Positions 12,956 through 21,693 of a DNA stretch of 64,000 bases are shown piece by piece (position 1 is the first letter of the stretch; the number at the start of each line of letters is the position of its first letter). The translations under genes were made by a program, and so were the position numbers. The stretch comes from Sarcomyxa edulis (lineage: Eukaryota; Basidiomycota; Agaricomycetes; Agaricales; Mycenaceae), in NCBI GenBank assembly GCA_009761415.1, contig QUOL01000005.1, positions 992,001 through 1,056,000 on the forward strand. The letters are read 5' to 3'. Below the pieces are notes generated by a model that was given only the letters and a program-made list of their open reading frames with translations, did not search any database and had not been told where the DNA came from.

Positions 12956-14059
12956 CTAATCCTCACGCTTTCCATAGTTGGATTGAATGTCATCCGTAAA
13001 CTCTTCAGGCGCTGGGAAAACAAGATAAGGATCAATGATTCGATCAAGATTAGTGCAAGAAACTTACAGCGGCCGTAGTTCGACTGGATATCGTCGGTGA
13101 ACTCTTCACGCTTTCCGTAGTTCGATTGAATGTCATCAGTGAACTCCTCGCGTTTGCCGTAATTCGACTGAATGTCATCGGTGAATTCCTCACGTCCGTA
13201 ATTCGACTGGATATCGTCAGTGAACTCTTCTGGAGCTATGACCAGACGAGATAAGTTGAGGGTTCAATGGATCATTAATGGGAGCTTACAGCGGCGGCCA
13301 TAGTTGGATTGGATGTTGTCGGTGAATTCCTCGCGCTTCCCGTAGTTGGACTGGATGTCATTGGTGAATTCCTCGCGTTTTCCGTAGTTGGACTGAATAT
13401 CATCGGTGAACTCCTCACGCTTGCCGTAGTTAGACTGAATTTCATCAGTAAACTCCTCAGGAGCTAGAGATTGGAGGGGAAATTGAGCACATCGAATTCT
13501 TGTATGAGTACGATGTGGAGACTTACAGCGGCCATAGTTAGACTGGATGTCGTCGGTGAATTCCTCGCGTTTGCCGTAATTGGACTGAATATCGTCGGTG
13601 AACTCTTTACGTTTGCCATAATTGGACTGAATGTCGTCAGTAAATTCTTCGGGAGCTACAAAGAGGAATATCAGGCTGCAATCGAGCTATCAATTGAAGC
13701 ATGAATGATTTACAGCGACGACGACGACCGTAGTTAGACTGAATGTCGTCGGTGAACTCCTCGCGTTTTCCATAGTTAGATTGAATATCGTCCGTGAATT
13801 CCTCTCGCTTGCCGTAATTAGACTGTATGTCGTCCGTGAAGTCGGGCTCGTATGAGAATCCTCCTAGATTGACCGTGAGGAAACGAAGGAGGAGTGCGTG
13901 TTGTATCAGACTTACGGGCACGACTCAAGCCTAGACATAAGGTCAGCGAGCTGTGTTGTACAATGAAGTCTGTAGGGACATACCAGTCTCCGAGAACGGT
14001 AGAGCAGCTGCCATTGTGACGAGTGGCACAAGAGTAGCAAAAATGAGGGTGAGCTGCAT
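12956..14059 (-). CDS. secreted repeat precursor peptide (dikaritin-like RiPP precursor candidate)
   Basis: Seven exons (76, 15, 150, 129, 174, 168 and 56 nt) sum to 768 nt, giving 255 residues. Residues 1 to about 20 form a signal peptide (MQLTLIFATLVPLVTMAAA, cleavage near ALP). After a leader of about 17 residues come fifteen copies of a 12-residue core, E-E-F-T-D-D-I-Q-S-N-Y-G. Most are followed by Lys-Arg, the Kex2 site; at four exon ends the separator is Arg-(Arg)n-Ser-Pro, and one is a single Arg. Variants are few: TDEIQ, TNDIQ, TDNIQ, one K-E-F and a first copy D-F. Synonymous codons differ freely between copies while the peptide is held. Dikaritin precursors (ustiloxin, phomopsin, asperipin) share this layout of signal peptide plus KR-bounded repeated cores with Tyr. 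It is adjacent to two UstYa-like genes. A repeated signalling or structural peptide is the alternative. Confidence 0.88.
12962..13843 (-). repeat. fifteen 42-bp coding repeats in four intron-separated blocks plus one
   Basis: Units of about 42 bp encode EEFTDDIQSNYGKR. Exons 3 to 7 carry 3, 3, 4, 4 and 1 units. Introns 3 to 6 all interrupt the same Ser codon (phase 1) of the R-S-P spacer, so whole exon-plus-intron blocks seem to have been duplicated. Confidence 0.9.
13916..13930 (-). other. 15-nt microexon of the precursor gene
   Basis: Encodes G-L-S-R-A between introns 13931-13983 and 13864-13915. It joins the signal-peptide exon to the repeat exons, and the total of 768 nt depends on it. 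Confidence 0.7.
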
Positions 14060-14993
14060 CTTTGATTGGGTGAAGGTGGAGTGAAGTTACGATGAGACAC
14101 AAGGAGGGAGTCAAGGGATTGGATTCAAACGAAAAAAAAAAATTGGGCTTTAATAGGGATTCATGGATTTGATGACCTTGAATGGTTTGTTTTCCGGGGT
14201 CGGAGGTAATTACTCAAGATCGCGCATATGGTATGTGACTAGGGGTTCTTGGAGCGAAACCAAGATAAACCTTCACAGCATAGCGATCAGGTCTACATAC
14301 AGCATGGGTGACCGGAACGGTGATGTACGTGTGGCGTGATGGAATAGAAGAGAAGTAGACGGACCAATTGGGATAGTAAAAAGTGGGGTTCTATCTGATT
14401 CGCGCAAGGTTCGTGCGAAGAATCAAAAGTAAAATTAGAATGTGTAAATGAGGGTACGGTGATGTTGTACTCCGGACTTGCAGCGGTGTGAGTTTCAAGC
14501 AAGTTGCAACGAAGTGGAGTGACTTAGTGACTTGATGTGTGACTTGATGTGTGACTTGATGGTGATGGTGCTGTTTGGCTGTAGCGCTGCCAATCCGTCC
14601 TAATCCGGCGATCGAATATCATCGATAACGCGTCTTGTCCTAATCGCTCCCAGTGGTTCTCATCCAAGGCTCACATACTCCTGATCCTATCACATAGGTC
14701 TCGGATCCTGAAATGTCACCTGCCCTGGCCTATCTTCTCCCCCTCCGTATGGTTCACTCCCCGACTTTGTCTTTAGAATAGAACCGGCGATAGCGATCTC
14801 TCTGACTCTCTGAATCGGTACTCTATGAGTTTTCCATCAGACCGATGGTTCCATCATAAGCTTCCACGGTACGTATACCGGCTTACCTGAGATTCGCACC
14901 CTTTCCATGCAGACCTGGTGTAAATGGATCGAGAAATATCGTCGGGAACTATTGTTGTGCTTTAGCTTGTCTTTGGACCCCCCCACATCTGCG
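14060..14993. other. divergent promoter region between precursor and first UstYa gene
   Basis: The precursor runs left and the oxidase runs right from this 930-bp stretch, so they may share regulatory sites. A 12-bp direct repeat, TGACTTGATGTG, occurs about three times in a row at 14528-14563. Another short tract near 14560 has GGTGATGGTG. No coding sequence is supported. Confidence 0.5.
14148..14155 (-). promoter_or_regulatory. TATA-like element of the precursor gene
   Basis: On the minus strand TATTAAAG lies about 90 bp upstream of ATG 14059, followed by a T-rich run. Position and sequence fit a core promoter. Confidence 0.4.
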
Positions 14994-19245: not shown

Positions 19246-21693
19246 TTAGAGACCCTTCTCATCGATTCTGACCAGCCCTAGGCGTCCCCTCTCCAATCTA
19301 ACAACAAGCCCATCCAGATCCTCCGACTCCAGAGTGTTTATAGAATATTCAGAATGTATCACTCGTCGGGCATTGACCTTTTCCAGTACAAGTTTCGTCT
19401 CGTCGTCGTCGTCGTCGTCGTCGCCGGATGCGTTCGAAATAGAGGAGGAAAAGCAAGTCGTGGCGGAGGAAAATGATGTAGAAATGGATGTTGTACTCGT
19501 GCTCATGCTGTCACTCGCGTTCTCTTTATCAGAGTCCCCATCGTCTTCATTCACGAAGGCCCTAGTGGTGTCTTTTCCAACCATCAATGCCCTGGCCAGC
19601 ACTTCTGGGTCTATCACACGCGCGTTGACATCCAACAATTCTTTTCCCAACTTGCCTATACGTTTCACTTCCCTGTCTTCTTTATTATCGGAAGGCTTTC
19701 CATCCTTGCTAAAACTCTCGTTTTTGCCCACGGCGGCTGCCTCAACCCTTGCGTGCTGCTCAGGTGAGGTAGGATTGAACAGCTTCACGCAGAAATCGAG
19801 TGATTTCTGTAGTTCTGATTCTGAGAGGCGCGCTCCCATGTCTGACGCGCCTTGTATTACTGTTTGGAAGGATCAGACTATAAGCAGATGAATGCAAAAC
19901 TGAAGACCAGATGAGAGGCGCACCGGGACGAAGGAAGGTGAATGCACGGTCAAAGTTGTCTTCGTCAACGTCCGCCAAGATGTCGGTGCTCTCTGCTCGG
20001 ATTTGCTTGTAAGCGCTCATTACGACAACTTGAAATCTGGGCGAGCATAAGGCGTTAGCGTGGACCCTTGTCCCTTGATGATAAGCAGATAAATTACGAG
20101 AAACGCGAAACCGAACAGAAGAAAAGCGAGAACCAATTGAAGCATGTACCTAGTATAACTTGTTGCGACTCTCTTGGTGTGCCACTCTGCAGCCTGTGCC
20201 TCTGTACAGTCTCCACGTATAGATGCGCAAATGCTGCTCGCAGCTGAAAGTCCCGAGGTCAATGCTAGATGGATTCCAGAGGAGAAGAAGGGATCGATGA
20301 AGGCTGGATAAAGCGGTGAAGTGGAATCAGCAACTTGTATCCATGTATGGGGGGTTCAGCGAAGCTTGAACGTACCACCAGCATCCCCGATGATCCTGTA
20401 CCCATCCCCTCCATACCGGTTTGCAGCATAGCTAAAATCACTAGCGCTCTTTACGCTACCAGGCGTCAGTTTTCCGGATGAGATAAGCTTCACCAAGCCA
20501 GGGGCGAGGGTGAGATTAGAAAGGTAACGGTCCAGCATCTTGGAGCTGGGAGCTCGGGACGGGACTTGGGAGGTTGTGAAGGGAGAGGGTGATAGGGACG
20601 ATTTGCATTTCTCGTTGTGAGCTTTTTGGTTCATGACGATACCGATGGAGGTCGTGCCATTCAGAGGGATAAACCATGCCCAGCCAGTGTGATCTTTGTA
20701 AGAGGTAGCATGTCATTATCGCATTTTGTCAGAAGAAGAGAGGAAAAAGACAACTCGCCTGTTAATGCTTCGAACCACGGAGCGCCTTCCCTCGGAGTAT
20801 CCATTCCATAGGTGCCGACATCTGTCCAGTAACTATGTACACAAAAAAAAACGTGGTAAAGCTAAAACATAGTCTAAACTTTAGATTGACGGAACTAACC
20901 CCCAAACGGCGATATTTTTGAGACTTTCGTTGAAGCGTCTATTCTTGAGATGGGAGGTACTTAAGAGACCAGCCCGACCGCTCGCGTCGACGAGGTGTGT
21001 GTAGGTGGTCTGACCGTGTGTCTGGGTGTTGGAAGATGTAGTCTGTGTCCAAGAGACATTGATAGGTCTGCCGATGTCGATGGTTCCATCTGGAGCTGGG
21101 GTGGTGTTGGATGAAGTGGCGTCAAATCCGATAGCTGTAACTTTTGTTCCTTCAAAGACTTTGACGTCGCAGGAACGCGCGTGATTAAGAAGTAGGAGGT
21201 CGAATTCGGAGCGTGTCTATGTAATGTTGAGTCTTGATGGTGGCCTGGAAGGAAAGTACTCACGACGTTCCAGGAATTGTTGTCATGTCCCAGGGCTACA
21301 AAGTCCGTGTCTGGGTTGGGTGTGGTGGTTAGCGTCAGTGCCAAAGCTTCCAAATGAACGATACCCACATCCTTCGCGTTTGAACTGATTGAATTTAATG
21401 GCTGATCCGGGCTGGTGAGGCATACAGTATGAGAAGTATGTGATTGAATCGGAATGAGATGTACACACCTTGCGAACGAAACCAGCATCGACGAGTTTGT
21501 CTTCGGCATCGATGAAGCGTAGATAATGTCGTATAGAGGGTATCAGACTCTCCCCGACGTGATATCTAGGAAAATGAGCAGATTCGAGGAGGACGACGTC
21601 GAGGCCTTCTCTTGCGAGGACGGAAGCACAATAGCTTCCGGCTGGACCACCACCAATGACTACGACTTGGGCATTCGAAGGGGGGGAAGGCAT
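19246..21693 (-). CDS. flavin-dependent halogenase
   Basis: Nine exons (225, 43, 47, 317, 74, 318, 154, 113 and 614 nt) sum to 1905 nt, 634 residues. The N terminus holds the FAD-binding GxGxxG motif in [19 protein letters not shown], then [10 protein letters not shown]. Exons 5/6 encode GWAWFIPL, the WxWxIP motif that separates FAD halogenases from monooxygenases, and exon 7 encodes [11 protein letters not shown]. Together these resemble the fungal phenolic halogenases (Rdc2 and the Armillaria ArmH group). These enzymes use reduced FAD, O2 and chloride or bromide to halogenate activated aromatic rings. The last exon adds about 130 poorly conserved, acidic residues with an Asp run, longer than usual. 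Intron 20694-20758 is GC-AG. The neighbouring peptide has one Tyr per core, a possible target. It could instead act on an unrelated small phenol. Confidence 0.9.
20037..20149 (-). other. 113-nt halogenase intron that encodes a membrane-helix-like stretch
   Basis: Splicing GTACAT...GCCCAG restores [17 protein letters not shown]. If retained, the frame runs through about 23 strongly hydrophobic residues ([15 protein letters not shown]...) and stops shortly after, giving a shorter protein with a C-terminal anchor. It is about twice as long as most introns here. Confidence 0.55.
20694..20758 (-). other. GC-AG intron in the halogenase gene
   Basis: The donor is GCGAGT after ACAG; the acceptor is TTACAAAG. 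The splice creates [14 protein letters not shown], right at the diagnostic motif. No GT donor gives this join. Confidence 0.7.

Follow-up and report, generated by a model that had tools for sequence, protein, structure and literature searches.

Which of the genes that lie side by side in a mushroom genome act together on one secreted peptide? This question is raised by a 64,000-nucleotide stretch of DNA from Sarcomyxa edulis (Agaricales; contig QUOL01000005.1, positions 992,001 to 1,056,000; hereafter the window), in which a precursor gene with a repeat array, two genes of the UstYa/DUF3328 family (UstY-A and UstY-B) and a gene for a flavin adenine dinucleotide (FAD) halogenase follow one another within 9 kb. 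A sequence-only reading had assigned all of them to a single dikaritin-type pathway for a ribosomally synthesized and post-translationally modified peptide (RiPP). After rebuilding the four genes from the DNA via their splice signals, we found each of them at the place where that reading had put it. We propose that three of them, coding for a secreted repeat precursor and the copper oxidases UstY-A and UstY-B, probably form a dikaritin-type RiPP unit, because the genes are intact, the core peptide is strongly constrained, precursor and UstY-A make up a divergent gene pair, and the pairing of UstY-A with UstY-B is found in several relatives. The features of this unit are the following (positions in the window).

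12956..14059, reverse strand: precursor, a KEX2-processed repeat protein (KEP) of 255 amino acids in 7 exons, based on splice signals and translation
14059-13984, 13930-13916, 13863-13714, 13655-13527, 13463-13290, 13235-13068 and 13011-12956, reverse strand: the precursor exons
13984..14059, reverse strand: exon 1, encoding the probable signal peptide MQLTLIFATLVPLVTMAAALP, judged by eye from the translation
12956..13863, reverse strand: the five exons that bear the repeats (core counts 3, 3, 4, 4, 1); all but the last have a length divisible by three
14060..14993, no strand: 934-bp gap that separates the start codons of the divergent precursor and UstY-A genes
14994..16019, forward strand: UstY-A, 267 amino acids, five exons, second intron GC-AG; HQLHC and HLDHC; PF11807, E 6e-59
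17842..18926, forward strand: UstY-B, 284 amino acids, five exons; HQLHC and HLDHC; PF11807, E 9.4e-63

The precursor and its repeat array

The hydrophobic N-terminus of the precursor reads as a putative secretion signal, and the protein is probably secreted. All six introns are in phase 1, following the first base of a codon. The lengths of exons 3 to 6 (150, 129, 174 and 168 bases) would keep the reading frame if an exon were skipped or doubled. The translation holds 15 cores of the form FT[D/N][D/E/N]IQSNYG. The fifteen copies of a 12-mer that had been announced are therefore present as cores, but not as exact copies: the 12-mer EEFTDDIQSNYG is exact in 10 of the 15 and the 10-residue FTDDIQSNYG in 12. 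Their boundaries are mostly Lys-Arg, as had been claimed, with KR after ten cores, RR after one and RRRR after another, which gives a dibasic site after 12 of 15. Phe, Thr, Ile, Gln, Ser, Asn, Tyr and Gly are invariant in all cores, Tyr being position 9.

At the DNA level, the 15 cores are 15 distinct sequences that encode only 4 peptides. Across the 105 core pairs the proportion of differing nonsynonymous sites (pN) is 0.016 and that of synonymous sites (pS) 0.92, resulting in a pN/pS of 0.018, a value with some built-in bias to low pN as the units were picked by a motif that fixes 8 of the 10 residues; no additional, more diverged unit was found in the precursor translation. Many DNA forms, few peptides and a low pN/pS thus mark the repeats as old. 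Judged from the sequence, the array is beyond chance, the introns are old like the repeats, and the core peptide is kept by selection under strong constraint. We rejected a recent origin of the repeat exons by tandem duplication, since synonymous sites differ strongly and intron similarity does not exceed that of shuffled sequences. Searched with four units of the repeat, the 35.6 Mb assembly gave the precursor locus as its sole match (E up to 10). Pfam matches to the precursor fell under the cut-off (DUF4287 the best, E 0.0027) and were set aside as weak.

The UstY-A/UstY-B pair

UstY-A is the immediate divergent neighbour of the precursor gene and UstY-B is next on that side. Both genes are intact and have identical intron phases; the two DUF3328/UstYa genes with pairs of HxxHC motifs seen before were thus recovered as such. 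In a quick tree of 81 rows, in which long branches are unsurely placed, two motifs of the HxxHC type are present in 75 rows. UstY-A belongs to a ten-row clade with a support of 100, UstY-B falls outside of it and its own nearest fork is poorly supported. Among the best 120 of 138 homologues of UstY-B the closest are from Agaricomycetes, headed by Taiwanofungus camphoratus (60% identity) and Mycena vulgaris (59%), and the lower-ranking ones from ascomycetes.

Seven named species have a row in the UstY-A clade, six of which have also a row of another type among the matches listed. Taking equal-sized contigs as a proxy for the same contig, both types lie together in four of these six (M. vulgaris, Agrocybe chaxingu, A. 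pediades and Gymnopilus junonius), and the pair of A. chaxingu bears the successive gene numbers g5193/g5194. The two types thus seem to travel together in some Agaricomycetes, as an old enzyme pair that tends to stay together.

The assembly contains at least ten UstY places (18 exon matches, grouped). A crude scan of about 10 kb on each side, which required three or more copies, found no KEP-like precursor at the other eight; Gly-rich, Ser/Thr-rich and VICGVLLATA readings at those places were dropped as low-complexity and not KEP-like. Two of the UstY genes, L003 (C13:504.8k) and L004 (C9:605.5k), are near-identical and lie on two contigs, reflecting either a recent duplication or two haplotypes.

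Proposed maturation of the peptide

In the mechanism that we propose, the precursor would enter the endoplasmic reticulum through its signal peptide. UstY-A and UstY-B, each predicted to have a single membrane helix at the N-terminus and its HxxHC/HxxHC copper site in the lumen, would oxidize the FTDDIQSNYG cores there. The most likely outcome would be a side-chain cross-link through the invariant Tyr9, Tyr being the kind of residue that enzymes of the ustiloxin type link. Tyr-Ile links are described for ustiloxins and epichloecyclins (PMC9233826), and this analogy points to Ile5 as the likeliest partner. Kexin would then cleave at KR/RR, a Kex1-type carboxypeptidase would trim the basic residues, and an enzyme of the Ste13/dipeptidyl aminopeptidase type would take off Ser-Pro ahead of EEF. 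Topology, substrate, chemistry, order of the steps and product are all inferred in this scheme.

Several of its elements are observed. The precursor gene is adjoined by two UstYa/DUF3328 genes with an intact double copper motif, and its repeat units are mostly separated by KR/RR. The genome encodes a kexin P-domain (PF01483 at C38:977970, E 3e-14) as well as matches to the N-terminal and S9 domains of dipeptidyl peptidase IV, side by side at C7:222-225k. Ser-Pro follows some of the basic sites, ahead of EEF at an exon start, and resembles a Ste13 signature. For the DUF3328 protein CctR, the double HxxHC motif is reported to bind two copper ions, and changes of its His or Cys residues to abolish activity (PMC12435403). 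KEP repeats in the vicinity of DUF3328 genes are also reported to contain Tyr more often (65.6 vs. 38.2%; PMC7329392).

An in-silico Kex2/Kex1 digest, run on the precursor after residue 20, frees EEFTDDIQSNYG four times, and five times if a Ste13-type enzyme takes off Ser-Pro. The leftovers are three one-residue variants, a long piece made up of the leader and one core, and the dipeptide ED from the end, next to three fused double units (6 cores) that stay uncut where a single Arg joins them. These rules release the exact form from no more than 5 of the 15 cores, and product uniformity should not be taken for granted; extra cutting at single Arg would free further cores. The calculated M+H is 1417.575 for linear EEFTDDIQSNYG, 1415.560 after loss of 2 H and 1413.544 after loss of 4 H; the corresponding values for the 10-residue core are 1159.490, 1157.475 and 1155.459, and a chlorinated -2H form would be expected at 1449.52 or 1191.44, respectively.

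A number of observations weigh against a dikaritin-type unit. Ustiloxins and phomopsins have an N-terminal Tyr that is missing from this core, and a single Arg replaces the dibasic site after 3 of the 15 cores. The pairing of both UstY types was not seen in two of the six relatives, Phlegmacium glaucopus and T. camphoratus, the rows of the latter being named AcV7 and AcV5 and possibly stemming from two assemblies. No homologue of the precursor was found at E ≤ 0.001 among the 8000 candidates that had the most words in common with it, repeats being hard for such a search, which leaves S. edulis as the only species in which its linkage to UstY genes is seen. The promoters have no more 8-mers in common than random stretches, and no motif above background that would point to co-regulation was found between the precursor and UstY-A start codons. 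The clusters for ustiloxin and phomopsin include tyrosinase and peptidase genes. Neither an S41 peptidase nor a tyrosinase was seen near the present genes: PF03572 gave one match, below the cut-off and far from the window, and the tyrosinase negative carries no weight, as PF00264 gave no match anywhere, its controls included.

Moreover, just 6.1% of basidiomycete KEPs are reported to have a DUF3328 gene within 15 genes (PMC7329392). By a rough estimate this is not far above chance, as about ten UstY genes per genome and an assumed 11,000 genes would place a random gene near a UstY gene in a few per cent of cases. That figure alone is thus weak support, and the direct adjacency of two UstY genes is the stronger argument.

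The same figure bears on the best-surviving alternative, which we hold to be unlikely: the precursor would be an ordinary KEP whose secreted peptide stays linear and may serve as a signal in development or in the manner of a pheromone, while the UstY pair serves another substrate and is a chance neighbour. Besides the weak association of KEPs with DUF3328 in Basidiomycota (PMC7329392) and the Ste13-like Ser-Pro, this is in line with the Agaricomycete KEP peptides detected by peptidomics, which are reported as minimally modified (PMC9769878). It does not account well for a UstY gene as immediate divergent neighbour with a second one next to it, when the 35.6 Mb hold at least ten UstY places, nor for the Tyr in 15 of 15 cores.

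Less probable again is that one of the two UstY enzymes itself halogenates or hydroxylates the peptide instead of cyclizing it. Enzymes with DUF3328 are reported to halogenate, hydroxylate and macrocyclize (PMC12435403), and the family includes copper halogenases. No tested sequence feature separates these reactions, and the closest UstY relatives at NCBI are named only 'hypothetical' or 'unnamed' protein.

The neighbouring halogenase

The gene to the right of UstY-B was claimed as a pathway member before:

19246..21693, reverse strand: RadH-like FAD halogenase, 634 amino acids, nine exons; PF04820, E 2e-25; a neighbour, probably not a pathway member

The WxWxIP motif attributed to it is indeed present as GWAWFIP. 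Its closest solved relative is RadH (8gu0, E 8.6e-125), with which it has the Lys (Lys75, aligned with Lys74 of RadH) and the WxWxIP motif (GWCWTIP in RadH) in common; the GxGxxG motif is present as GGGPAG. The GxGxxG motif, catalytic Lys and WxWxIP motif that mark a flavin-dependent halogenase of the RadH type are all present, and the enzyme looks intact and functional.

We consider it very unlikely that this enzyme acts in the pathway, chlorinating Tyr9 or Phe1 to give a halogenated, cross-linked peptide. In favour of such a role, the intact gene adjoins UstY-B tail to tail at a distance of about 320 bp. The substrate of RadH is a radicicol-type phenol and Tyr is likewise a phenol; we know of no peptide substrate of RadH or of the Armillaria halogenases ArmH1-5. 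Phomopsin is a chlorinated dikaritin. So is victorin (PMC9233826), which likewise derives from a KEP but carries its chlorine on aliphatic chains, and whose halogenase was unidentified as of a 2022 review (PMC9144378). According to the same review, ArmH1-5 chlorinate melleolide F, and halogenases of Armillaria mellea that are encoded outside the melleolide cluster accept free substrate (PMC9144378).

The relatives of the halogenase argue in the other direction. Out of 7998 scored candidates 4931 passed, the best 120 of which are 50-59% identical near full length, or up to 65% over 74-84%. By hand count, 115 of these rows are named and represent 105 species, which we take to be Agaricomycetes from their genera; 98 of the species have a single row among the 120. 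More than one row is found in Schizophyllum commune (four, close in the tree) and in six kin of Marasmius and Lentinula, whose second and third rows all fall into one separate 13-row clade and thus indicate an extra copy. The recognition of this Agaricomycete-wide group, with an extra copy in Marasmius-Lentinula kin, is a by-product of our analysis.

In a midpoint-rooted tree of 125 rows, where long branches are again unsurely placed, the seven Amanita rows group together, as do 20 rows of Mycena and allies (Mycena floridula apart), Suillus with Rhizopogon, six Schizophyllum rows, and Armillaria with its allies. The window halogenase belongs to a 118-row set (support 89), beside a six-row group of Omphalotaceae (support 94); no fork with a support of at least 95 and up to half of the rows contains it. 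The S. edulis genome has at least four further halogenase-like genes, at least five in total, and these four fall outside the 118-row set on long branches. When spliced models were compared reciprocally, each by a single alignment, the window halogenase came out ahead of the four other genes for all 120 relatives. An earlier tblastn vote, which summed overlapping exon hits, had given 73 of the 120 to the window gene, 41 to the C37 paralogue and 6 to the C11 paralogue; the choice of the 120 by likeness to the window gene favours that gene.

Finally, UstY and halogenase rows lie on equal-sized contigs in 0 of 14 species among the matches listed, so the linkage expected of a halogenated RiPP cluster was not found in the relatives by this proxy. 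The enzyme also shows no signal peptide by eye and would therefore start in the cytosol, whereas the precursor is predicted to be secreted; soluble tailoring enzymes act in the ustiloxin pathway as well, and this point is not decisive.

Tree, reciprocal comparison and contig comparison led us to drop the halogenase as a cluster member from the leading view. The group is Agaricomycete-wide and its tree, as reconstructed, largely follows the fungi. With this breadth and the absence of UstY rows on equal-sized contigs, the window gene is most simply read as an old, widely kept gene that lies here by chance, an independent neighbour. What had been proposed as a dikaritin-type cluster with a halogenase is thus supported for the precursor and the two UstYa genes, not for the halogenase. 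It would be a guess that the group has a general role, e.g., in common chlorinated mushroom metabolites. The result may serve as a warning against reading membership from adjacency alone, which would put a chlorine on a product that is probably unchlorinated. The boldest combination, a chlorinated and cross-linked basidiomycete peptide from a conserved pair of UstY copper oxidases that was joined in this lineage by an old flavin halogenase acting on Tyr9, is the least probable of all.

Relation to known systems

The dikaritins of ascomycetes (ust-RiPS), i.e., ustiloxin, phomopsin and asperipin-2a, have in common with the S. edulis unit repeated cores between Kex2 sites, one or more adjoining DUF3328/UstYa genes and, probably, a signal peptide. 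The present core differs by its Tyr near the C-terminus and has no relative that we could find, and the host is a basidiomycete.

Such a setting is not without precedent. The same combination of gene kinds was predicted by genome mining (Umemura 2020, PMC7329392), where 7878 KEPs are reported from 1345 of 1461 strains, with DUF3328 within 15 genes of 1647 of the 5372 ascomycete and 103 of the 1680 basidiomycete KEPs. Pleurotus ostreatus is reported to have 16 UstYa-like genes, 6 of which are developmentally expressed (PMC8893723). The Agaricomycete KEPs known from peptidomics have the same layout, with XP/XA dipeptides as Ste13 sites; in contrast to the modified product proposed here their peptides are minimally modified, and the text of that study contains neither 'UstY' nor 'DUF3328' (PMC9769878).

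In the open-access literature, no paper was found that joins UstYa, basidiomycete, RiPP and halogenase; dikaritin together with halogenase returned a single paper, on lanthipeptide engineering; and no characterized UstY-modified peptide of a basidiomycete was found, though such neighbourhoods have been predicted by mining. The locus is a further case of the KEP and UstY arrangement predicted in Basidiomycota, with a core of its own. It offers a clean test case, as a single precursor carries a near-uniform core next to a divergent UstY gene and the exact masses of its peptides can be stated in advance.

Other genes and repeats of the window

Two transporter genes lie to the left of the precursor:

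4300..9600 (approximate), forward strand: full-size ATP-binding cassette (ABC) transporter; PF00664, E 1.6e-15 on one open reading frame (ORF); PF00005, E 6.5e-43 on joined fragments
10300..12525 (approximate), forward strand: likely major facilitator superfamily (MFS) transporter; PF07690, E 6.1e-08 on joined fragments, 1 bit under the cut-off

Both are common kinds of transporter and are therefore counted here as no more than possible members of the pathway. They are probably the two unnamed members of the six genes that the sequence-only reading had counted.

To the right of the halogenase, dense tandem repeats with GACCGACC- and GACGACTG-type units extend from 24227 to 25349, followed by an ORF with a peroxidase domain (26867-27544, reverse strand; PF00141, E 2.4e-13). 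Mobile-element genes are present in the right half of the window, with a PIF1-like helicase ORF (40233-41609, reverse strand) and a Plavaka transposase ORF (53404-54963, forward strand). A telomere-like GTTAGG array of 98 bp (35831-35928) is embedded in a Copia-like element, between its integrase ORF (35347-35832) and its reverse transcriptase ORF (36169-38757).

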